Assembly: GCA_011389855.1 (NCBI GenBank)
Contig: JAABTM010000021.1
Coordinates: 1-33,915 of the forward strand
DNA length: 33,915 nt
Origin: Desulfobacteraceae bacterium
GTDB taxonomy: Bacteria > Desulfobacterota > Desulfobacteria > Desulfobacterales > JAABSP01
Direction of reading: 5' to 3'
Position 1 is the first letter of the stretch. Each line of letters begins with the position of its first letter. Position numbers and translations under genes: made by a program. Below the pieces are notes generated by a model, which saw nothing but the letters and a program-made list of their open reading frames with translations, did not search any database and was not told the DNA's origin. Shown in pieces: positions 10,212 through 33,701 of this stretch.

Positions 10212-10802
10212 TCACAGGCCGATGGCGGCGGCGATGGATTCGATGGCGGACCGGTCCAACCCCTGGACCGTCAACAGCCGATCGCCGCAACCGGAAAGCA
10301 TTTCCCGCAGGCGCGCCAGTTGTCCGTTATCGAGGGCCTCGGTTCTGTTGACGATCACCCAATCCGCGCCGTTGACCTGGTCGGATACCAGCCGGCGCCG
10401 CTCATTCCACAAGAATTCAAACTCGACGCCGTTTATCAGGGTTATGAGCGGTCCGGTCTCATAGCGAACATCCCGTTTCCCCATGGCGGTAACATTCCGG
10501 AGTTCCTGGGACGTGACCATCTCCGACGCCTCGATAAACAAAACATCCGGCGCCAACTTTCGTTTGGCTTCTTTCAGCTTGTCAACCAGACTGGCTGCCA
10601 GGGAACACCCCACTCATCCGCCGCGGATGAAAAAGGCGCCCAGTTCGTGCCGCCGGATAAAGGCGTCATCGTAAGGGGTTTCCCCGTCCTCATTGACAAT
10701 GACCGCCGTTTGCCGGCCTTTGTCGGTGGATATTTCCGTCAGGCCCCGGATCAAACGGGTTTTACCGCTGCCCCGGATGCCCGCTACGCACACAACCCGC
10801 AT
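10212..10802 (-). CDS. Candidate selenoprotein: CobW/UreG-like P-loop GTPase with Sec63 in the CxCC-type motif
   Basis: ORFs 10614-10802 and 10212-10613 are in the same frame, separated only by TGA (10614-10616): MRVVCVAGIRGSGKTRLIRGLTEI...VNEDGETPYDDAFIRRHELGAFFIRGG-U-VGCSLAASLVDKLKEAKRKLAPDVLFIEASEM... Aligns with neighbour CobW ...VKDIGGG-C-ICCEVASTFAKTIYRLFKDFKPDHVLVEPTG. Confidence 0.87.
10583..10597 (-). promoter_or_regulatory. SECIS-like stem-loop downstream of UGA (CAGCCA-GUC-UGGUUG)
   Basis: 6-bp stem including one G-U pair, loop GUC starting with G, 16 nt after the UGA codon. Confidence 0.6.
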
Positions 10803-15555: not shown

Positions 15556-16485
15556 TTACCCCCGGGGCCTGTTTGCCGCGATGGACGCGGCGGCGTGTTT
15601 GGCGGCCCGGGCCCCGTCGGCGCAGGCCGTCAGCACCTGGGGCAGGTCCGTATCCCGGACGTCCCCGGCCGCGAAAAGTCCGGAGACCGAACTCATCAGC
15701 CGGTTGTCGGTCTTGATGTACCCTTCGGGCGTGATATCGACGGGAAAATCGATCATGTCGGTATTGGGCGTCCAGCCCACCGCGAGAAAGAGGCCGTCGA
15801 TGGGGATCTCCCGCTCGCCTTCAGCCGCCGACCGAACCGCGACAGCCTCGATGTCGTCGAGGCCGACGTATCGCACCACTTCGGTTTCCGGCAACACGCA
15901 CACATTTTCCAAGCCGGCCAGCAGCGCCGCGTGGGCCGCGTCCATGGCCGTCTCACGGCTCCGGTGAATGAGGTAAACCGTTTCGGCCACGGCCGACAGG
16001 GTCAGCACATGCTGGGCGGCGGCGTTGTCGCCGCCCACCACCGCCAGCACCGCACGCCGGTTCCTGTAAAGCGGCCCATCGCATACAGAGCAGAAATTGA
16101 TTCCTTTCAGGTGATCGCCCCCGGCCGCAAGCCGTTTCGGAACCCTGCCGCTGGCGACGATGACCGCCGGAGCGTCAAGGATCCGCCCATTGTTGTCCGT
16201 CGCCTGAAATCCGCCGCTATTCCTGGCAATGCGGTCAAGACGGGTCATGGTGAACCGCGCCCCCTCTCCCTGGGCCTGTTGAAACAGCTTGAGACCGAAT
16301 TCGGTTCCGCCCACACCGTCGACATAAGCGGGGAAATTATTCAAGCTGTTCACCATATAAAGATTGCCGCCCGGCGTGTCGCCGAAAACGACGGTCGAAA
16401 GCCCCAGTCGCCGGCCGTAAAGGGCCGCGGTGCAACCCGCCGGTCCGGATCCCACAATGATGATATCGATTCCGTCTTCGGACAT
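15556..16485 (-). CDS. Thioredoxin reductase-like FAD/NAD(P) oxidoreductase
   Basis: IDIIIVGSGPAGCTAALYGRRLGLSTVVFGDTPGGN...INFCSVCDGPLYRNRRAVLAVVGGDNAAAQHVLTLS...GLFAAGDVRD. Confidence 0.9.
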   Translation of the reverse strand: MSEDGIDIIIVGSGPAGCTAALYGRRLGLSTVVFGDTPGGNLYMVNSLNNFPAYVDGVGGTEFGLKLFQQAQGEGARFTMTRLDRIARNSGGFQATDNNGRILDAPAVIVASGRVPKRLAAGGDHLKGINFCSVCDGPLYRNRRAVLAVVGGDNAAAQHVLTLSAVAETVYLIHRSRETAMDAAHAALLAGLENVCVLPETEVVRYVGLDDIEAVAVRSAAEGEREIPIDGLFLAVGWTPNTDMIDFPVDITPEGYIKTDNRLMSSVSGLFAAGDVRDTDLPQVLTACADGARAAKHAAASIAANRPRG

Positions 16486-16524: not shown

Positions 16525-17550
16525 TCAGGCCTGATACGGCTGGTAAACGCCCAAACTGGCCCAGCCCCCTCCCCGGGTCAGGTTTTCGACCTGTTTGACG
16601 GCATCCGGCGGCCCGATAAAGACGACGACGTTCTGGTGCGTGATGCGTTCAGGCGGCAGGTGCGATTCCGTCAGGGTCCAGTCTCCCATTACATAGTTGA
16701 AAATCCGCTGTTTTCCGTTTTCCCGGATGAATCCCTTGGCCCGAACCAATGCCGCCGGCAGAGACTGAGCCATCTGTTCGATTTCCGCCAGATCGGTCCC
16801 CTTCCATTGATAGGCCGCGGATACCAGAAGATCGGGAGGGGTCATTTCCAGCTCGGGGCTGTCCAGAAGTTCATCGATGAAGGCATCCAGTTCTTCGGGC
16901 GACATAACGGCCATCGCTTCCCCAGTCAGCTTTTCCGGGGCAGAAGCATCATTGACGTCGAAGCTGAAAAACCGGTCCAGCGGGACGTCGGCGTATACGG
17001 TCTCGTAAAATACCGGATCCGGATGGAATTTCCTTATGACGTCTTTGGTTTCGGCAACTCTTTCCGGGGGCGCCATATCGGTTTTGTTAAGAATGAACAC
17101 CGTCGAAGAAGCGATCTGTTTTTCCAAAGACGCGTAAACATCATAAGCTTCCAGAAAATGGGCGGCGTCGATGAGGCAAAACTGCTCTTTGAACTGAAAA
17201 CGGTCGTTGAAAATCGGCAGTTTCAGATCTCTCTTGAGGTCCGTTGGATTGGCCACTCCGGTGGATTCGATGATCATCACGTCGGGTTTGACCGTTGTGT
17301 TGAGTTCGTACAAGCCTTTTATGAAATCGGTCTTGACGCAAACGCAAAAGATGGAGCCTTTGCTGATCTCCATCATGTCGATGTCGTCGCCCTCCACCAG
17401 AACGCCGTCAACGCCCACCTCTCCGAACTCGTTGACCAGAAGCGTCAACTTCAAATCTTTTGGAAAGGCGTGGATGACCCGGTTTAAAAAAGTGGTTTTT
17501 CCCGATCCGAGAAAGCCGGTGATCAGATAAACTTGAGTAATGTCCGACAT
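16525..17550 (-). CDS. CobW-like GTPase with altered CxCC motif (GSIFCVC)
   Basis: VYLITGFLGSGKTTFLNRVIHAF...LLVNEFGEVGVDGVLVEGDDIDMMEISKGSIFCVCVKTDFIKGL...MIIESTGVANPTDL...ILNKTDMAPP. Confidence 0.92.
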   Translation of the reverse strand: MSDITQVYLITGFLGSGKTTFLNRVIHAFPKDLKLTLLVNEFGEVGVDGVLVEGDDIDMMEISKGSIFCVCVKTDFIKGLYELNTTVKPDVMIIESTGVANPTDLKRDLKLPIFNDRFQFKEQFCLIDAAHFLEAYDVYASLEKQIASSTVFILNKTDMAPPERVAETKDVIRKFHPDPVFYETVYADVPLDRFFSFDVNDASAPEKLTGEAMAVMSPEELDAFIDELLDSPELEMTPPDLLVSAAYQWKGTDLAEIEQMAQSLPAALVRAKGFIRENGKQRIFNYVMGDWTLTESHLPPERITHQNVVVFIGPPDAVKQVENLTRGGGWASLGVYQPYQA

Positions 17551-17553
17551 GGC

Positions 17554-17799
17554 TTACATCCTCTCCTTTATCTTGGCGTCGATCGATTCCGAGGAAAGAA
17601 TCTTGCCGGTTGAAACCACCTCGCCGTCAATGACCAGCCCCGGGGTCATAAAAACGCCCTTTTTTGCAAACAAATTAATATCTTTTATTTTCGTTATCTT
17701 TATATTGACATTGGAATCAAAATTCGAAACCGCCTCCACGACGTTGTCATATAGTTGATCGCACCGGGCGCACCCCGGTCCCAAGACTTCTATGATCAT
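17554..17799 (-). CDS. Small thioredoxin-like protein (redox-active disulfide protein family)
   Basis: MIIEVLGPGCARCDQLYDNVVEAVSNFDSNVNIKITKIKDINLFAKKGVFMTPGLVIDGEVVSTGKILSSESI. Confidence 0.88.
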   Translation of the reverse strand: MIIEVLGPGCARCDQLYDNVVEAVSNFDSNVNIKITKIKDINLFAKKGVFMTPGLVIDGEVVSTGKILSSESIDAKIKERM

Positions 17800-17820
17800 A
17801 ATCTCCCCTCCTGTTTTCAA

Positions 17821-18144
17821 TCATACCGCATCGGACGCCGGGCAATCAGCGTCCAAAACCTCGGCGCAAGCGACATCCGAAGACAACCTCAGGGGGTTCT
17901 GGCAAAACTTGCACACACCCAGGATGTTCGACAGCGGGTTGAGCCGCTCCCAAAGTTCGGAGTAGACGTCTGCGCTGTCCCGGGCGAGACCTCCCTGAAG
18001 GCTTTCGGGGGCGTCGAGTTCGCGAATCCGGTCCGATTTTCCGCAGTAAGGACACCGTACGCCAAAAAGCGCCAAATCGGTGCGGGGCAGGTCATGCTCT
18101 ATGATGAGCATTCTCAACTTTTCTATGGCGGCATGGGTGTCCAC
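17821..18144 (-). CDS. Small zinc-ribbon-like protein with two CxxC motifs
   Basis: VRCPYCGKSDRIREL...NILGVCKFCQNPLRLSSD; GTG start at 18144 preceded by AAAGGA; the track start at 18183 lies inside a strong hairpin. Confidence 0.6.
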   Translation of the reverse strand: MDTHAAIEKLRMLIIEHDLPRTDLALFGVRCPYCGKSDRIRELDAPESLQGGLARDSADVYSELWERLNPLSNILGVCKFCQNPLRLSSDVACAEVLDADCPASDAV

Positions 18145-18167
18145 GGCGTCGGAAATCCTTTGTGATG

Positions 18168-18200
18168 ATCGGTCCGGGCCCACAGGGCGCCCGGACCGAT
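18168..18200. repeat. Perfect 12-bp stem hairpin between operonic genes
   Basis: atcggtccgggc (18168-18179) / gcccggaccgat (18189-18200), 9-nt loop; no T-tract. Confidence 0.7.
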
Positions 18201-18211
18201 AACCGGTTGAA

Positions 18212-18616
18212 TTATGACCTTTTGGAATCTGATCGGGTTGACAAGCCCGATCCTGCTTTTTCCAGATTCTCCGCGAGCTTATCGAAGTTAAACCCTTGAT
18301 CGCGAACGGACAAGAGGCGCTCTCTCAACGCATCCGTCGGCGCGCGTTTGGCCATTTCATCGATCAGTTCTTCGTACTGGGGAATGATGCTCTCGAACAC
18401 CAAGTCGTTTTCAATACAGATGGTCGGCAGGACTTTGCCTTTGAGTTCCATGAATTTGGCGACGCTGTCCTGGTTTTTAATCGACCATTCTTTATAAACA
18501 ATCATCTCTTGAACATCATCGGGCAACGCGGCGATGGATTCCATCATGTACCCGCAGGCCGCGCATTGCACGCTGTCCAAGGTCAAAACATCTATGTTGA
18601 TTTTGTCTTCAGACAT
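18212..18616 (-). CDS. Thioredoxin-like protein (CAAC motif), Cys paralogue of the UxxC protein at 29275-29583
   Basis: INIDVLTLDSVQCAACGYMMESIAALPDDVQEMIVYKEWSIKNQDSVAKFMELKGKVLPTICIENDLVFESIIPQYEELIDEM. Confidence 0.82.
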   Translation of the reverse strand: MSEDKINIDVLTLDSVQCAACGYMMESIAALPDDVQEMIVYKEWSIKNQDSVAKFMELKGKVLPTICIENDLVFESIIPQYEELIDEMAKRAPTDALRERLLSVRDQGFNFDKLAENLEKAGSGLSTRSDSKRS

Positions 18617-18643: not shown

Positions 18644-19678
18644 TTACCATGAGTCCGGATACTTGGTATAATATTGATCGTACCAATCTCTGGCTTCAAT
18701 CGCTTGATCCATATGTTCCACCGGAACATCGTAGGGCATGTCTCACCCAGGGGCGAATGTGTAGCCGTGCTGACCGCCCGCGGCAAGGCTTACGATGGCG
18801 TCCTCCCGCGGCGAGAGCAGCCCGAGGCTCAGGGCCAGGGTCAGCTTCAGGTTGCCGCCGAAGCCGACTTTGTGTTTGAGGGCCAGGTCCCGGATGAAGT
18901 TCATGTTCATCTGCTCGTCGATGGCGAAACCGTGGGTCCCGATTTTACAGACTTCTTCCATGACCTTGGTGGCGTCTCCGCAGATGAAAAAGGACGAGGT
19001 CAACCCGGCATCCTTTATCACTTTGTTGGCGGCCTGGCTGTTGGGGGTCACGAACTTCCGGAAGGTTTCAGCCTTGATCTGGGAGGCCACGGGATCGACG
19101 TTGGCGATGATGTCGCACCCCATTTCAGCATAAAGCTCGGCCGATTTGGCGCCGACTTCCCCTGCGAACTTGCAGACTTCGGCGGCGAAATCCGGATGCT
19201 TATATACATCCGTAAAAATCCGGACGCCGGCCAGATGGGAAGCCAGGGTCAACGGGCCGCAGAACAAGCCCATCAACGCGCAGTCCAGTTCCTCCAATTG
19301 CGGTTTGGCGATCTTGGCCGCCTCGAAAATCACCGGCCAGCGGCCCGAATCCTTAGTGGGCAGTTGGAGGCCGGCCTCGGCCGGGGTCTTCTTGGAGCAA
19401 GGGTGATCGGTCACGGATGGAACGTTGTCGGGCCACCACTTCAGGCCGCAACCCACCGCGTTCGCCTCCACGGAAAGGTCGAACAAAAGCGGAATGCCGT
19501 CCGCCTTGTACCGTTTGGCGGTATGGACCACGCCTTTGGCTAACAGTTCAGGATCCTTTAGCATTTTATCAGCGGGTTCGTTAATGAGAAAAGCGCAATG
19601 GACCCCCGAATAGGGAACCCATGGCGCTTTAACGGTCTTCTTTCCTCGATAGGCATCAATCAGCATCTGCTTGGCCAT
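18644..19678 (-). CDS. Candidate selenoprotein: MtaA/URO-D-type corrinoid methyltransferase with Sec312
   Basis: Track ORF stops at TGA 18743-18745 after ...GGQHGYTFAPG. The same frame continues U-DMPYDVPVEHMDQAIEARDWYDQYYTKYPDSW* to TAA 18644-18646, matching the family C-terminal (A/P)GC(D/E)xP motif in paralogues (WPGCDLWPD, TTGCEFPPN). Confidence 0.93.
18713..18729 (-). promoter_or_regulatory. SECIS-like stem-loop downstream of UGA (AUGUUCC-GGU-GGAACAU)
   Basis: Perfect 7-bp stem with GGU loop, 13 nt after the UGA codon. Confidence 0.78.
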
Positions 19679-19786
19679 GAGGACGCTCCTTTCTCTTTCT
19701 GACGGTTAAGGTTCCAACTACCGAACAAAAATTGCCTGATTAATGTACCTCCTTTCCTCTTTAACATGTAGTGGTGACAAAACCTC

Positions 19787-20267
19787 TCATTCCAGGAGGA
19801 TAATGGCGTAATAGCTGAAAACGTCGTCGGCGTTTCCAGCCACCGCCGTCTCGATTCCCACATTTTTCAGGGTTCCGATGACATCGATGGAAAACGATTC
19901 CACCGAAGGTCGTTTTTCCTGTGGGAAGCGACAATCTGACCTGCATCGCCCGCTTGCGTTTGTTGTCGCGATAAAAATCCGGACATTTGGCGCTGCCCAC
20001 CAGCAACAGGGCGAGCTGGTATTCATCGAGGACCTTTCGGACCTTGTCGGGATTGGGGGTGGCCGGCGGGCAGCGCCGGTTGGTGTTGTATTTGGCGCAG
20101 CCGTAGCGGCATTTGAGGTGGACCCATTCGGCCACGAGAATTTTTTCGACGCCAATTGGGATCACCTCGTTCAATCCATATTTCCGGCTCTTTGCAAGCA
20201 GGCGGTCCAGCAGATGGTTTGAGACGCCCTTGTCATCTTTAAATCGGACGACCTTATTCGTCGCCAT
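19787..20267 (-). pseudogene. Disrupted DUF2284 gene (internal deletion plus frameshift)
   Basis: N-part VAEWVHLKCRYGCAKYNTNRRCPPATPNPDKVRKVLDEYQLALLLVGSAKCPDFYRDNKRKRAMQV; C-part in another frame DCRFPQEKRPSVESFSIDVIGTLKNVGIETAVAGNADDVFSYYAIILLE. The central Cys-rich block of DUF2284 is missing. Confidence 0.75.
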
Positions 20268-20628
20268 GATGGGGGGCCTTTTCACCTTCATCGAAACGGA
20301 GGGTCACATTCCGCGGCAGCGCCATGTCCATGGCGACTTCGGCGGTTTTCACAATCGCCAGTGGAATGCCGCAGGACGGGTGGCATCCCGACTGATCGGC
20401 GGCCCGGTAAACCGGATTCCGGGTCATGGGAAGGAAAACCTCCTTCAAGGTCAATTCCGTCAGCGTCCCGGACAGTTTTTGTATCTGGCGGCATTCAGAG
20501 CCGGTGATTGCGATTTTCACCGTCCTTTTGCCGTTTTTCCGAGCCGTGATCCGGCAAACGAAGCCGCAGACGCCGGGATCGACATGCATGCAAACGAATT
20601 CGGTCGTATCTGTTTTCGAAGATGTCAT
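20254..20628 (-). CDS. Conserved hypothetical Cys-rich small protein
   Basis: 124 aa; DPGVCGFVCRITARKNGKRTVKIAITGSECRQIQKLSGTL...GCHPSCGIPLAIVKTAEVAMDMALPRNVTLRF. Confidence 0.75.
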   Translation of the reverse strand: MTSSKTDTTEFVCMHVDPGVCGFVCRITARKNGKRTVKIAITGSECRQIQKLSGTLTELTLKEVFLPMTRNPVYRAADQSGCHPSCGIPLAIVKTAEVAMDMALPRNVTLRFDEGEKAPHHGDE

Positions 20629-20721: not shown

Positions 20722-22809
20722 TTATTGATCCAGGATGTCGTCGGGAACTATGCCGCGCAGATGGGGAAAGTCGTCTTTCATGTGCGGCAACTGCATGGAT
20801 TCCATGAAATCCTGCTGGAAAGTGGACTCCACCGTCAACTCGATGTATTCCACGTTGCGCGAACACCAGTTGGCTTCGACGCGTTTTTTCCTGTCGAGAA
20901 GCGCCGCGCGGCATCCATCGCCGGCCGCGTTGCCGACCCCCATTATCTTTTCAATCTCGCAGTCCGGGAACAGTCCCATGGTCAGCGCTTTGGTCCGGTC
21001 CACATGGGTACCGAAAGCCCCGGCGATTTTCACCACATCCACCTTTTCCAGGCCCATGCGCTTGACCATCAGCTTGCAGCCCGCATACAGCGCGCCCTTG
21101 GCGAGCTGGATCTGACGAATATCCTTCTGGGTAATCACGATGTCCCGGTCAATGCTGGATTCCTTGGCCCAGGCCAGTACGAACTCGGGCTGATTGGTAT
21201 CCGGGTTCTTGCGGAACCGGGGAAATTCTTTCAGTTCTTTTTTGTTGAACACCCCGCTTTTGGTGATGACGCCGGAACTGTACAATTCAGCCAGAACATC
21301 CAGAATGCCGGAACCGCAAATCCCCTTGGCCTTCATTTCCTCGGGCTCGGAGAATTTGCGCCAGGCGTCGCGGCCGATCACCTTGTAATCCACTTCTTTG
21401 GTTTCCCGGTCGATGTTAATACGCTCGATAGCTCCGGGGGCGGCCCGCATGCCATAGGACAATTGAGCGCCTTCCAGGGCCGGACCGGTGGCGCAGGAAG
21501 AAGAGATCAGCTTATGCCGATTGCCCAGCACCAGTTCACCATTGGTGCCGATATCGATAATCAACTGGTTTTCCTCATGCTTGTAGGGTTCTTCCGCGAT
21601 CAGAACGCCCACGTTGTCGGCGCCCACGAAACCGGCTTCATTGGGCAGGACGAACATGTACGAGGAAGGATTGATCTTCACGCCCAGATCGCGGGCCTTG
21701 ATATCCATGCTGTGGTGAATGACCGGGGGAAACGGCGCCATGCCCACATATTCCGGATTCAAGCCGAGCAGGATGTGGTGCATGGCCGTGTTGAACCCGA
21801 TGGTGATATCTTCAACATCATCGATGGACAGACGCAGATATTCCTTGCCGTCTTCGATCACCTCGACGAACCCGTCATCTTCAATCACCTCCGCAGATTG
21901 GGCGGCCGCCTCTTCACCCTTCTTCTTTTTCTTCTTTTTCTTCTTGGGGTGGGTGGCGGCCACGGCCTTTTCGATGAGTTCGTTGAGCCCTTCGATGATG
22001 TCGTCGCTCATCCGTTTGAGGCCGTCCGGGGTGGTCATGTGGAAGGTGATCCGGGCCATGACGTCCTCGCCGTATTTGCACTGCGGATTCATCATGGAAA
22101 CGGTGTCGATCACTTCCATCGTGGTCAGATCGCAGAAATAGGCCGCCACCGTGGTGGTGCCCACATCGATGGCCAGACCATAGGATTTTTCGTGTTTTCC
22201 CGGTCGGATTCGAACGATTTCCTTATTGTTCCAGACGCTGACGGTCACCGCCCACTTACCCTCCCGCAATGCGTCGGGCAGGGTGCGGAGGGTGAAAATA
22301 TCGCAGGTCAGGTTCTGAAGGCCATAGTCCCGCTCCAGGCCCCGGCAGATCCGCTCGAAATCGCCGGTGGGTTCCTCGAAGGTAGGGGCGTCCACTTGCA
22401 CGTGGTACACCCGAACCGCGGGATCATGATCGATGGGGATGTCGCGTGCGGCTTTGCTGACCACCTGCTTGCCGGCCCGGGATTCCTCGGGAACGAAAAT
22501 CAGCATGTCGCCTTCGATTTTGGCCATGCATCCCAATCGGAAACCCTTCTCCCTCCGACCGGCGTTGATGAACTTTTCTTCCTCTTCCTGCCATGCGCTG
22601 CAATTGGCCTTGCTGGAGGTAATGCCGTATTTTTCAAAATGGCCTTCCTCCACCCGGACAATGCACTTGCCGCACACCTTTTTTTCACCGCACAGCGCTT
22701 CGATGTCGACACCGAGCAGGCGGGATGCTTCGATAATATTGATTCCCTTGGGAACTTCCCCCCTTCGGCCGGAAGGTTGAAAGATGACCATGGCTTTGTC
22801 GTCACTCAT
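20722..22809 (-). CDS. RACo-type corrinoid activation protein (2Fe-2S ferredoxin-like N-terminus plus ASKHA/DUF4445 ATPase)
   Basis: INIIEASRLLGVDIEALCGEKKVCGKCIVRVEEGHFE (2Fe-2S), GLAIDVGTTTVAAYFCDLTTMEVIDTVSMMNPQCKYGEDVMARI, QLIIDIGTNGELVLGNRHKLISSSCATGPALEGAQLSYGMRAAPGAIE. Confidence 0.94.
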   Translation of the reverse strand: MSDDKAMVIFQPSGRRGEVPKGINIIEASRLLGVDIEALCGEKKVCGKCIVRVEEGHFEKYGITSSKANCSAWQEEEEKFINAGRREKGFRLGCMAKIEGDMLIFVPEESRAGKQVVSKAARDIPIDHDPAVRVYHVQVDAPTFEEPTGDFERICRGLERDYGLQNLTCDIFTLRTLPDALREGKWAVTVSVWNNKEIVRIRPGKHEKSYGLAIDVGTTTVAAYFCDLTTMEVIDTVSMMNPQCKYGEDVMARITFHMTTPDGLKRMSDDIIEGLNELIEKAVAATHPKKKKKKKKKGEEAAAQSAEVIEDDGFVEVIEDGKEYLRLSIDDVEDITIGFNTAMHHILLGLNPEYVGMAPFPPVIHHSMDIKARDLGVKINPSSYMFVLPNEAGFVGADNVGVLIAEEPYKHEENQLIIDIGTNGELVLGNRHKLISSSCATGPALEGAQLSYGMRAAPGAIERINIDRETKEVDYKVIGRDAWRKFSEPEEMKAKGICGSGILDVLAELYSSGVITKSGVFNKKELKEFPRFRKNPDTNQPEFVLAWAKESSIDRDIVITQKDIRQIQLAKGALYAGCKLMVKRMGLEKVDVVKIAGAFGTHVDRTKALTMGLFPDCEIEKIMGVGNAAGDGCRAALLDRKKRVEANWCSRNVEYIELTVESTFQQDFMESMQLPHMKDDFPHLRGIVPDDILDQ

Positions 22810-22923: not shown

Positions 22924-23586
22924 CTACTTGTTTCGCATTTCCCTTAACCGGGCGATCATTTTGATGCCTTCTGAAACCGCGTTTCCGGCCGATTCGGCAT
23001 ACCCGTCGGCGCCGAACAGATTGGCGACGTCCTTGGTCACGGGCGCGCCTCCCAGCATGATGGCCACATTGGGATTCTTCTCCTTGATCATCTTGATGAC
23101 CTTTTTCATGCCCAGCATGGTGGTGGTCATCATGGCGGACATGGCGACCACTTCCGAGTCGGTGCGCAACTGCTCTTCGACGAATTTTTCAAGGGGAACA
23201 TCCCGGCCCAGGTCATGGACATCCCAGCCGGCCACGTCGAACATCATCTTGACCAGGTTCTTTCCGATGTCGTGAACATCGCCCTGAATCGAGCCGATGA
23301 CCACCTGGGCGTTGATCCCGTCCTCTTTCTTGGGAACATGGGGACGCAGAATCGCCAAACCGGCATAGAGCGCGTCCGCGCACATGAGAACCTCGGGGAC
23401 GAAATATTCGTTTTTGTCGTACAGTTCGCCCACGATCTCCATGCCCGCGGCCAGACCGTCCATGATGCCTTCCAGCGGATCGTAGCCCCCGTCCAGCCAA
23501 CCCTGGGCGGCTTCCCTGACAGTATCTTCCTCATATTCGACAACGCCGTTTTTCATCTGCTCCTGAAATTCTTCCTTGCTTGCCAT
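22924..23586 (-). CDS. Corrinoid (B12-binding) methyl-carrier protein, MtaC/MtbC/MtvC-like
   Basis: VVIGSIQGDVHDIGKNLVKMMFDVAGWDVHDLGRDVPLEKFVEE...NVAIMLGGAPVTKDVANLFGADGYAESAGNAV: DxHxxG corrinoid-binding motif. Confidence 0.95.
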   Translation of the reverse strand: MASKEEFQEQMKNGVVEYEEDTVREAAQGWLDGGYDPLEGIMDGLAAGMEIVGELYDKNEYFVPEVLMCADALYAGLAILRPHVPKKEDGINAQVVIGSIQGDVHDIGKNLVKMMFDVAGWDVHDLGRDVPLEKFVEEQLRTDSEVVAMSAMMTTTMLGMKKVIKMIKEKNPNVAIMLGGAPVTKDVANLFGADGYAESAGNAVSEGIKMIARLREMRNK

Positions 23587-23652: not shown

Positions 23653-24705
23653 TTACAGCCGACCGACCGCCGGGCTGGCCGGCTTGCCGTATTCGCGCAC
23701 GGTCTCCACGATCGCCCTCATATTGTCTTCCTTGATGTCCGGCCACAGGTCGCAACCGGGCCAGACGGCGTCCACCTTGCCGTCAATGTTCGTCTTGATG
23801 CCGGCAACGGCTTCCTCCACCGTGGTTTCTTCCTTGCAGGGAAGGGCGAACACGTCGAAGTTGCCCAGCACGAGGACGTCGTCGCCGACCTTTTCGCGGG
23901 TTTCCGTGAGGTTGTTCTTGATATCGACGCTCAGGGCATCGGCGCCGCAATCGTTCATCATCGGGATGATCAGGTCCGTGGCGCCGCAGATGTGAAGCAC
24001 CTTGGGGGATTCCCAGGATTCCAGGATTCTCATGACTCGGGGCTTGATCATTTCCTTCCAGGTTTTCGGGCTGATGAGGTCCGTGCCCGTGGCCATCTCG
24101 CGCAGGGTCATGTAATCCGCGCCGGCGGCCTTGTAGGCCCCGCTGACCTTGATGAGCATGTCGGTGATCTTGTCCAGAACCTCCTCCACCTTTTTCTTCT
24201 GCTTGAAGACGCCCTTGAGCAACAGGTCCAGCTCCAGGAGCTGACCCGCCATGGTGAACGGTCCCAGGACCCAGCTGCCGATGGCGCGATCCGGGGCCAG
24301 CTCCTTGGCCTTCCGGATGGCCTCGCATACCATGGGAACCCGACCCATCTCGGCGATGTTGTCGGGAAATTCCACATCGTCCATGGTTTGCCAGATCTTT
24401 TCCGGGATGGTGGGGTAGAGGATATCCATGGAATCCTCGTACAGGCTGATCTCGTTGCCCACGGCCTGGGATTCGACGGTCATGTCGAAAGGAACGACCA
24501 CGGAATCGAAACCGAACATCTCGCTGGTGGTGACGGCGGCTTTGGCCATCATCTCGGCATTGGTGTGCACCTTGGCAAACTGGTAACCGAGTTGGGTAAT
24601 GGCCGGCATGAGCACCATCCCCATTCCGCTGAAAAAGGGCATGGTGTCCACGGGTTCCTTGTTGAACATACGCATCACACGTTCTTTCGGGGTGAGTTCC
24701 GCCAT
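23653..24705 (-). CDS. MtaA/URO-D-type corrinoid methyltransferase
   Basis: MAELTPKERVMRMFNKEPVDTMPFFSGMGMVLMPAITQLGYQF...KVLHICGATDLIIPMMNDCGADALSVDIKNNL...AVWPGCDLWPDIKEDNMRAIVETVREYGK. Confidence 0.93.
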   Translation of the reverse strand: MAELTPKERVMRMFNKEPVDTMPFFSGMGMVLMPAITQLGYQFAKVHTNAEMMAKAAVTTSEMFGFDSVVVPFDMTVESQAVGNEISLYEDSMDILYPTIPEKIWQTMDDVEFPDNIAEMGRVPMVCEAIRKAKELAPDRAIGSWVLGPFTMAGQLLELDLLLKGVFKQKKKVEEVLDKITDMLIKVSGAYKAAGADYMTLREMATGTDLISPKTWKEMIKPRVMRILESWESPKVLHICGATDLIIPMMNDCGADALSVDIKNNLTETREKVGDDVLVLGNFDVFALPCKEETTVEEAVAGIKTNIDGKVDAVWPGCDLWPDIKEDNMRAIVETVREYGKPASPAVGRL

Positions 24706-24738: not shown

Positions 24739-25690
24739 CTACATGTTTTTGAGCTGTTCCACAAAGTCCGGCCACAATTTATAAAGCGGGTGGTCGGGCG
24801 CTTTCGGCAGCTCTTTGGTTTCGGCGAAAACCGCGGTCGCCAGGAAGGCCTTCGGCTTCGGCCACGGCCGGAATGATCCGCTCCGCGCCGGCCATGGGAC
24901 CTGAAAATATCATGTCGTGATAATAAAAAGCCGACAGACCCTCGAGAGCGGCATCCGTGGCGGCCCATCCATTGAAGCCCAACAACTCTCTGAAACGCTT
25001 CAAATCCATATAGGAGCCGTTGCTCGGCGCGCTGGATACCGGGAACCCCCATTTCTCCTTGATCATCCGGTTGGCGACTCCGCAAAAGGCCGCCGCGGGA
25101 CCGTTCATAACCGACGTATCCACGAAAATGGACTCGAATTCGGCGCCGACCTTGTCGATGGCGTCCAGCATTTTCTGGGTGCCGCTGATCCGTCCGGAGG
25201 GCATCTGGTCTTCCTGATCGAACGCAACCAGCAGGACGTGTTTTACGCCTATGTCGGCGATTTCCTTGACCTCGGTTTCCAGATCCTGTTCCCACACGGT
25301 CAGGCTGTTGTAAAACATCCGGTCCATCAGCCCTTTTTCAGCGCAATACTTGGCGCCCGCCAGTTTGGGCTTCATCACCCAGGCGTCGATGCAAAACGGC
25401 ATGGTGCTCTTTTCCGCCACAAAATCGATGTACCGTTCAAACTCCGCCCCGGTGTTGGCCACGATGTCGGCCATTCCCGGCACCCCGGTTTCCACGGAAA
25501 GGCGCTCCTGGTTCTTGAGCAATTCCTCGGCCCGCTTTTCATCGAACCCTTCCTTCCGCTTTCCCGAAAACACCTTGTCGCCCTTCTGAAAAATGGAACT
25601 GACGCAAACGCAGGGATACTCCCCGGGCTGCCCCCCGAATTTGACCCCGCCGACCTCGCATACTTTCTGCTCTCCGTCGATCCTGAACAT
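24739..25690 (-). pseudogene. MtrH-like methyltransferase with C-terminal +1 frameshift
   Basis: MFRIDGEQKVCEVGGVKFGGQPGEYPCVCVSSIFQKGDKVF...SGPMAGAERIIPAVAEAE, then a frame switch; the alternate frame reads AFLATAVFAETKELPKAPDHPLYKLWPDFVEQLKNM* to 24739. One extra G near 24847-24850. Confidence 0.8.
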
Positions 25691-29848: not shown

Positions 29849-30466
29849 CTAGTCCCCGACCCGGCCGAGCATGCCGTTCAAGCAGTCCCGCAGCTCATCC
29901 GTGCCCGGAATGTGGTCGAAGGCCAGCCGGCCGTCGATGAACAGAGAGGGGACCGGCGGCAGCTTCCCAAAAATCCGGGCCAGCTCATCGAATCGGACGG
30001 CCCCTTCCTTTCGGGTCAACACCACTTTTTCCCATTTCAAGGCGCCGTTGAACTCGGGGGCGACTTCCTCCACCACTCGGGTCATGTATTCGCAGGGCAC
30101 ACAGTGGGAACCTTCATGAAGAATTTCCAAATGGATGGCTTCTCTTTTCCCGATCGCCTCCTCAATGACTTCCTCCAGTTCAAACATGGGCGGAATCGCG
30201 TCAAAAACCAACTCGCCGTTAATAAACAGGGAAGGGACCGGGGCCACGCGGCAATGCTTATGCACCGCGTCTTCGCCGTAAAGTTCACAGGACAATTGAA
30301 GAAACCGCTTTTTTCCCTCGCCCTTCATGAAATCCACCCGGCGATAGTCCACGCGGTCGGCGTATCGGGGCAGGATTTCAAGGACGGTCTGATCCATATA
30401 AAAACAGGGGAGACAATAGTCGGCCTTGTACATCACCTCGATCACCACTTTTTTTCCCGGTTTCAC
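29849..30466 (-). CDS. Tandem double thioredoxin-like protein (CLPC and CVPC motifs)
   Basis: Two similar halves: VIEVMYKADYCLPCFYMDQTVLEI...VPSLFINGELVFDAIPPMFELEEVI and LEILHEGSHCVPCEYMTRVVEEV...VPSLFIDGRLAFDHIPGTDELRDCL. Confidence 0.85.
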   Translation of the reverse strand: MKPGKKVVIEVMYKADYCLPCFYMDQTVLEILPRYADRVDYRRVDFMKGEGKKRFLQLSCELYGEDAVHKHCRVAPVPSLFINGELVFDAIPPMFELEEVIEEAIGKREAIHLEILHEGSHCVPCEYMTRVVEEVAPEFNGALKWEKVVLTRKEGAVRFDELARIFGKLPPVPSLFIDGRLAFDHIPGTDELRDCLNGMLGRVGD

Positions 30467-33585: not shown

Positions 33586-33607
33586 GCGCGGGAGTGAACT
33601 CCCACGC
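33586..33607. repeat. REP-like hairpin / possible terminator downstream of btuD
   Basis: gcgcgggagt-ga-actcccacgc, 10-bp stem with one mismatch. Confidence 0.55.
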
Positions 33608-33701
33608 TACTATGTGTCGTCCCTACAGGACTGGAATTGCAAAAAATGTCCAAGCAACAGGTGATCGATTCTTGAAAATCTCTTTTATTATGGAGACGAT
33701 A

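Follow-up and report, generated by a model that had tools for sequence, protein, structure and literature searches.

Does the TGA codon that interrupts a URO-D reading frame in a Desulfobacteraceae genome end the gene, or does it encode selenocysteine (Sec), and what might selenium do in an MtaA-like protein? The window, the whole 33,915-nucleotide stretch of DNA that was analysed, carries on its minus strand a frame (19678-18644) of 311 codons, a TGA (18745-18743), 32 further codons and a TAA. The original prediction held that this frame is read through to give a protein of 344 aa belonging to the MtaA/URO-D family. Frame translation and a URO-D profile match running across the TGA confirmed the frame and the family: the match to PF01208 reaches protein residue 331 and scores 153.5 bits against a gathering score of 23.9, which places the protein in the URO-D superfamily, and MtaA is its nearest neighbour in the PDB. 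In a search of the source genome, the match to this gene (18644-19678, minus strand), hereafter SelMT, contained one internal TGA, while the other four URO-D matches contained no internal stop.

Orthologues were collected from relatives and from GTDB 220, where each species was represented by one genome. They are 63-97% identical to SelMT and occur in Desulfobacterales, Desulfobulbaceae and Bacillota (Desulfotomaculum, Desulfofundulus, Pelotomaculum), most of the Sec relatives being found in sulfate-reducing bacteria. Codon 312, the UGA at 18743-18745 (minus strand), is TGA in 64 of 65 distinct full-length orthologues and TGC in the remaining one (L086); additional TGA members turned up in later searches, and neither TAA nor TAG was found at this codon among the orthologues. 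The near relatives have neither TGC nor TAA at the position. The motif APG-U-D(M/L/I)P(Y/F) runs on into sequence that is conserved up to the C-terminus. In the tree, L086 branches from inside the Sec clade at a well-supported place (starred node, 99/92), so that its Cys most simply replaced Sec. A second Cys orthologue, L146, carries TGT and is 65% identical; Cys at the aligned position is thus found in L086, in L146 and in the fusion proteins described below. Searches of viral contigs and of phage records found no SelMT relatives in either. An in-frame TGA in L019 was considered as a second Sec case but turned out to be the normal end of that gene.

The rival explanation is that the TGA is a genuine stop. 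The gene would then be cut short as a pseudogene or through an error in sequencing, or it would encode 311 aa and be followed by an incidental open frame. TGA is a stop codon in translation table 11, and the hairpin that follows it is not significant in the single sequence. However, the codon is kept across many genomes and phyla, the protein remains conserved past it, TAA and TAG never occupy the site, and homologues carry Cys there. In view of the conserved TGA and the conserved downstream protein, a plain stop, a pseudogene or a sequencing error was rejected, and we leave this reading only the slightest probability.

The hairpin that would serve as SECIS element was found exactly as it had been described: a perfect 7-bp stem with a GGU loop, AUGUUCC-GGU-GGAACAU (18713-18729, minus strand), begins 13 nt past the UGA, with the loop starting 21 nt after it. 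The bacterial SECIS model specifies a loop of 3-9 nt, a stem of 4-16 bp, a spacing of 16-37 nt and an MFE <= -7.5 kcal/mol, with a G among the first two bases of the loop (PMC13188914). The window hairpin agrees with all five features of this model (a 7-bp stem with the loop GGU, a spacing of 20 nt and an MFE of -10.2 kcal/mol). In isolation it is not significant (z = -1.13), and it was therefore tested by comparison of relatives. Of 66 distinct sequences, 63 have the loop at the same place. When codon entropy was set against background in the 192 conserved columns, Val318 (GTT in 61/61) and Pro319 (CCG in 64/65) gave the two lowest values, and both are stem codons; the neighbouring codons Asp317 (GAT in 59/60) and Glu321 (GAA in 61/64) are likewise constrained. 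This choice of codons at the hairpin indicates selection on the RNA. Covariation was also observed: a U-A pair is changed to C-G on both sides in L017, L082 and L083, and another pair has changed together in L147, L148 and L171-L173 (ACGUUC with GAACGU). Paired cells amount to 96% at the true register and to 22-54% in controls in which the partner was slid by 1-3 columns. In the Cys form L086, the hairpin is lost. The case for Sec is thus comparative, the single-sequence hairpin being unremarkable by itself, and from the sequences compared UGA312 of SelMT is very probably a Sec codon.

The source genome is equipped to read it. SelA is present, SelB scores over its cut-off, SelD has an in-frame TGA of its own and tRNA-Sec scores above the Rfam gathering score, so that all of selA, selB, selC and selD are accounted for. 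With these genes present, neither TGC nor TAA at the site in near relatives, and homologues with an aligned Cys, every refuting condition named with the prediction turned out in its favour. SelB was found in every Sec-carrying genome tested, and one genome without a SelB match has only a Cys fusion form. By its profile match, a CobW-related P-loop GTPase with an in-frame UGA (FFIRGG-U-VGC; 10212-10802, TGA 10614-10616, minus strand) is a second selenoprotein gene in the window and belongs to a known family, the CobW-related selenoprotein (NF041053, 240.3 bits, cut-off 180). Elsewhere in the window (29849-30466, minus strand), a HUIPC-type thioredoxin-like protein occurs in tandem (NF047660, 202 bits); its relatives in other loci have in-frame stops by tblastn and resemble the known selenoprotein form.

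What kind of protein is made? The AlphaFold2 model of SelMT (pLDDT 93) has its best PDB matches in MtaA (4ay8 and 4ay7, TM 0.85), with uroporphyrinogen decarboxylases next. The NCBIfam cut-offs were not reached for MtaA/CmuA (132.9 vs 235.4 bits), MtaA (108.3 vs 400) or MtbA (88.6 vs 600). In the alignment to 4ay7, Sec312 falls on the Cys that serves MtaA as C-terminal Zn ligand, Cys233 on the Cys of the MtaA HxC motif and Glu255 on a Glu of MtaA. Alignment also bore out the earlier observation that both paralogues in the window have Cys at the place of Sec312. The UGA, kept as TGA in 64/65, thus very probably encodes Sec at the position of the MtaA ligand Cys, as predicted.

Residues were compared across 170 URO-D sequences, among them 104 members of the [F/L]xC family and 58 HxC paralogues; the outlier L178, which lacks these residues, was excluded from the family counts. 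The HxC zinc motif reads Phe231-Ile-Cys233 in SelMT (codons 18980-18988, minus strand). The position of its His is Phe in 101 and Leu in 3 of the family members, and Cys233 is present in 104/104. His148 (codon 19235-19237, minus strand) is His in 104/104 family members and in 0/58 HxC paralogues, and Glu255 (codon 18914-18916, minus strand) is Glu in 104/104 and 3/58, respectively. At the place of His148, HemE has an active-site Tyr, which we take to be Tyr164 of human UROD. In the model, residues 148, 233, 255 and 312 each lie just past the C-terminal end of a predicted strand, which is the active-site face of a TIM barrel. This pattern indicates that the classical site is gone and that another set of residues has been fixed in its place, a set that may bind a metal. 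The exchange of His for Phe or Leu is one trait shared by the subfamily rather than many independent events. On these alignments the subfamily may be defined by three traits: HxC has become [F/L]xC, position 312 is occupied by either Cys or Sec, and His148, Cys233 and Glu255 never vary.

The original prediction had gone further in proposing that Sec replaces a catalytic zinc ligand. The alignment of Sec312 with the ligand Cys upholds part of this claim, whereas the intact His-Cys-Cys site that it presupposes is absent, the His being Phe or Leu in 104/104. UroD-superfamily S-methyltransferases bind zinc through His-Cys-Cys, which is their defining site (PMC10418091); in the SelMT family only Cys233 and the Sec or Cys at 312 are kept. 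The exact alignment of Sec312 and Cys233 with the two Cys ligands of MtaA, and of Glu255 with its Glu, would suit an enzyme in which Sec is simply a substituted ligand of a standard MtaA-type thiol-activating zinc site, yet with the defining His (PMC10418091) missing from all 104 members we consider such an enzyme unlikely. SelMT is, as judged from profiles and residues, a member of the URO-D superfamily and neither an MtaA/MtbA equivalog nor a His-Cys-Cys zinc enzyme.

Further clues come from genes that the original prediction did not include, namely a thioredoxin-like partner, a conserved gene cluster and Cys-containing fusions. The partner, TrxL, is a thioredoxin-like protein with a CAAC motif encoded 27 nt after the SelMT stop (18212-18616, minus strand). 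TrxL lies within 1.5 kb downstream of SelMT in 56 of the 61 loci examined, mostly at 20-40 nt, and is absent from the L090/L093/L094 subclade. It is homologous to the C-terminal domain of a group of fusion proteins: in Clostridia and in two Desulfobacterota-side genomes, the distant homologues of SelMT are single proteins of ~450 aa composed of a URO-D and a TrxL domain. These mostly have Cys at 312 and are often found beside CobW, a corrinoid protein or MtmB. The fusion constitutes direct sequence evidence that SelMT and TrxL work together. One Clostridial fusion, L154 (G594:C13:34719-36071), stands out from its Cys relatives by a TGA that coincides with the Sec position. No hairpin fitting the standard bSECIS model was found at the usual place in L154, so that its Sec assignment, based on position and SelB, is weaker; it may represent a separate change between the two residues, Cys and Sec.

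The window cluster, all of it on the minus strand, runs in the order MtrH, MtaA, corrinoid protein, reductive activase, DUF6951, DUF2284, SelMT and TrxL, followed by a small CxxC protein, an ArsE-type thioredoxin, CobW and a thioredoxin-reductase-like gene. Upstream of SelMT, the MtrH-like methyltransferase (24779-25690; PF02007, 165.3 bits) precedes an MtaA-like methyltransferase with the canonical HxC...Cys residues, its His and Cys being present in the alignment (23653-24705; NF004889, 232.3 bits). Next come a corrinoid protein of the MtbC/MtgC-like type (22924-23586; TIGR02370, 202.9 bits; PF02310 and PF02607), an AcsV/Ram-like reductive activase of corrinoid proteins (20722-22809; NF040756, 443.9 bits, below the curated cut-off of 800) and a DUF6951 protein (20254-20628; PF22263, 98.3 bits). 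The DUF2284-like gene (19761-20291) lacks an internal stretch: compared with the 97%-identical locus L037, about 43 codons are gone, including a Cys-rich part, and the frame is shifted, while intact relatives occur in 33 loci. From its sequence it may be either a pseudogene or the result of an assembly loss. An apparent TGA in neighbouring DUF2284 genes, considered as a Sec codon, was an artefact of the frame-shifted window query.

Downstream of TrxL, the small protein has two CxxC pairs (17821-18183), recurs in 17 loci and matches nothing in NCBIfam or Pfam. It is followed by an 88-aa thioredoxin-like protein of the MTH895/ArsE family (17554-17820; TIGR00412, 77.9 bits, over the cut-off), a CobW/COG0523 GTPase of the metallochaperone type (16525-17550; PF02492, 129 bits) and a thioredoxin-reductase-like flavoprotein with a CSVC motif, read from its sequence and conserved in 23 loci (15556-16485). 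CobW is found within 7 kb downstream of SelMT in 31 of 34 loci, and it also adjoins the Clostridial fusions. At the far end of the window, 33587-33632 (plus strand) matches the Rfam Acido-Lenti-1 RNA (RF01687, 42.4 bits, gathering score 37).

In a second arrangement, SelMT comes after a corrinoid protein, and an MtmB homologue (PF05369) lies between them, as in L082, L084, L085, L089, L090, L093, L094 and L100. These MtmB homologues have no in-frame TAG, which indicates that they lack pyrrolysine. In two Bacillota loci (L197 and L198), SelMT is flanked by GcvH-like lipoyl proteins, lipoyl synthase, a lipoate ligase-like protein, a dihydrolipoamide-dehydrogenase-like protein and DGC-domain proteins, with a MIP channel in L198. 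A Type 1 mlp gene cluster combines several Mlps with a corrinoid protein and Ram/RACE (PMC10418091); of these, the window has the corrinoid protein, a RACE-like activase and the MtaA-like protein. Joint inheritance may account for the neighbours in sulfate reducers, which do not have to act in one pathway. The gene context puts SelMT where the second methyltransferase of a corrinoid system would be expected.

Taken jointly, these data have led us to a reading that we regard as likely: an MtaA-like protein with Sec at UGA312, inserted by means of the SECIS hairpin, would have a role in corrinoid methyl transfer with TrxL and CobW as partners. SelMT would serve either (i) a system of corrinoid protein, activase, MtrH and MtaA or (ii) one of corrinoid protein and a non-pyrrolysine MtmB homologue. 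As a second-type methyltransferase, it could move a methyl group, in one direction or the other, between the methyl-corrinoid and a soft acceptor or donor such as a thiol, a selenol or a metalloid. The reaction centre would be built around Sec312 and Cys233. These two could coordinate a metal at a rewired site (His148/Cys233/Glu255/Sec312), or they could form a redox-active pair; TrxL might act as reductant, loader or carrier for this centre, and the CobW GTPase might deliver the metal as a chaperone. The more specific proposal is of a Sec-centred enzyme of the corrinoid methyltransferase type in which the zinc site has been rebuilt, with His231 lost, His148 and Glu255 fixed and Sec312 and Cys233 kept, and which is coupled to TrxL, so that methyl transfer would meet selenol redox chemistry in one active site. 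This we advance tentatively, giving it a little less than an even chance.

The redox-active pair could also function with no stable metal at all. Glycine reductase is a thioredoxin-dependent enzyme and offers an analogy. Cys233 and Sec312 would then form a thiol/selenol pair, a selenenylsulfide when oxidised. Attacking as a nucleophile, this pair would cleave or accept the methyl group, and TrxL would afterwards reset it. The loss of the canonical His, the adjacent or fused TrxL and the presence in the cluster of thioredoxin-reductase-like and further thioredoxin-like genes all agree with such a pair, whereas a metal site would fit with the invariance of His148 and Glu255 and with CobW as a conserved partner; on balance we think a metal-free centre rather improbable, though deserving of consideration. 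As to the substrate, the cluster might methylate or demethylate arsenic, selenium or related compounds. It contains an ArsE-type thioredoxin, DUF2284 is a domain elsewhere fused to ArsM in a selenoprotein, a MIP channel and lipoyl proteins accompany SelMT in the two Bacillota loci, and arsenic methylation was reported as a side activity of methanogen MtaA (PMC13262295). However, ars genes proper were not found in the cluster and the neighbours fit thiol or sulfur chemistry too, so that organometal or metalloid chemistry appears improbable and the indication of arsenic or selenium substrates is weak. Methyl transfer centred on Sec312 and Cys233, with TrxL and CobW as partners, is the reading that we prefer.

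Has such a protein been described? The prediction knew of no described case, and this held in every source searched. The URO-D/MtaA-type family is absent from the 2026 catalogue of 119 prokaryotic selenoprotein families and subfamilies (PMC13188914) and from an earlier review, and NCBIfam 20.0 has no selenoprotein model matching SelMT. Searches of full texts, main texts only and few of them from subscription journals, yielded no description of SelMT, so that a prior mention elsewhere is possible. Among URO-D enzymes of the corrinoid-methyltransferase type, SelMT apparently represents, by its sequence features, a new selenoprotein subfamily that has a thioredoxin-like partner of its own, the family having apparently gone unrecognised; in the papers and catalogues covered, there is no other Sec in a URO-D/MtaA-type fold. 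Annotation pipelines will cut such genes at residue 311, and the active-site residue is then lost. The gene is carried by the cultured organisms Desulfatitalea alkaliphila, Desulfocicer vacuolatum DSM 3385, Desulfofundulus australicus DSM 11792, Pelotomaculum propionicicum and Desulfotomaculum copahuensis, which makes the job of selenium in a methyl-transfer site directly testable. The natural Cys and Sec forms, and the split and thioredoxin-fused ones, provide ready comparisons.

With the catalogued bacterial selenoproteins (PMC13188914), SelMT shares the in-frame UGA, the bSECIS element, Cys homologues and the Sec machinery. With the MtaA/MtbA/Mlp methylcobamide:thiol methyltransferases (4ay7, 4ay8), it shares the fold (TM 0.85), the HxC-like and C-terminal Cys positions and the corrinoid-protein context, but it is only 25% identical, has Phe for His and Sec for Cys, an invariant His148 and a dedicated TrxL, and scores below the family cut-offs. 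The selenocysteine-assisted organometallic (Sao) and HgcA/HgcB selenoproteins, of which HgcA is a corrinoid protein, are, like SelMT, placed in organometallic chemistry; as far as a review table and citing papers describe them, their folds and genes are unrelated to those of SelMT. A further close parallel is offered by the Clostridial URO-D proteins fused to Trx (e.g., that of Subdoligranulum variabile, OY725850.1), which have the [F]xC motif, His148, Glu255, the CAAC domain and the CobW neighbour in common with SelMT, but differ from it in having mostly Cys at 312, in being fused, and in being ~36% identical.
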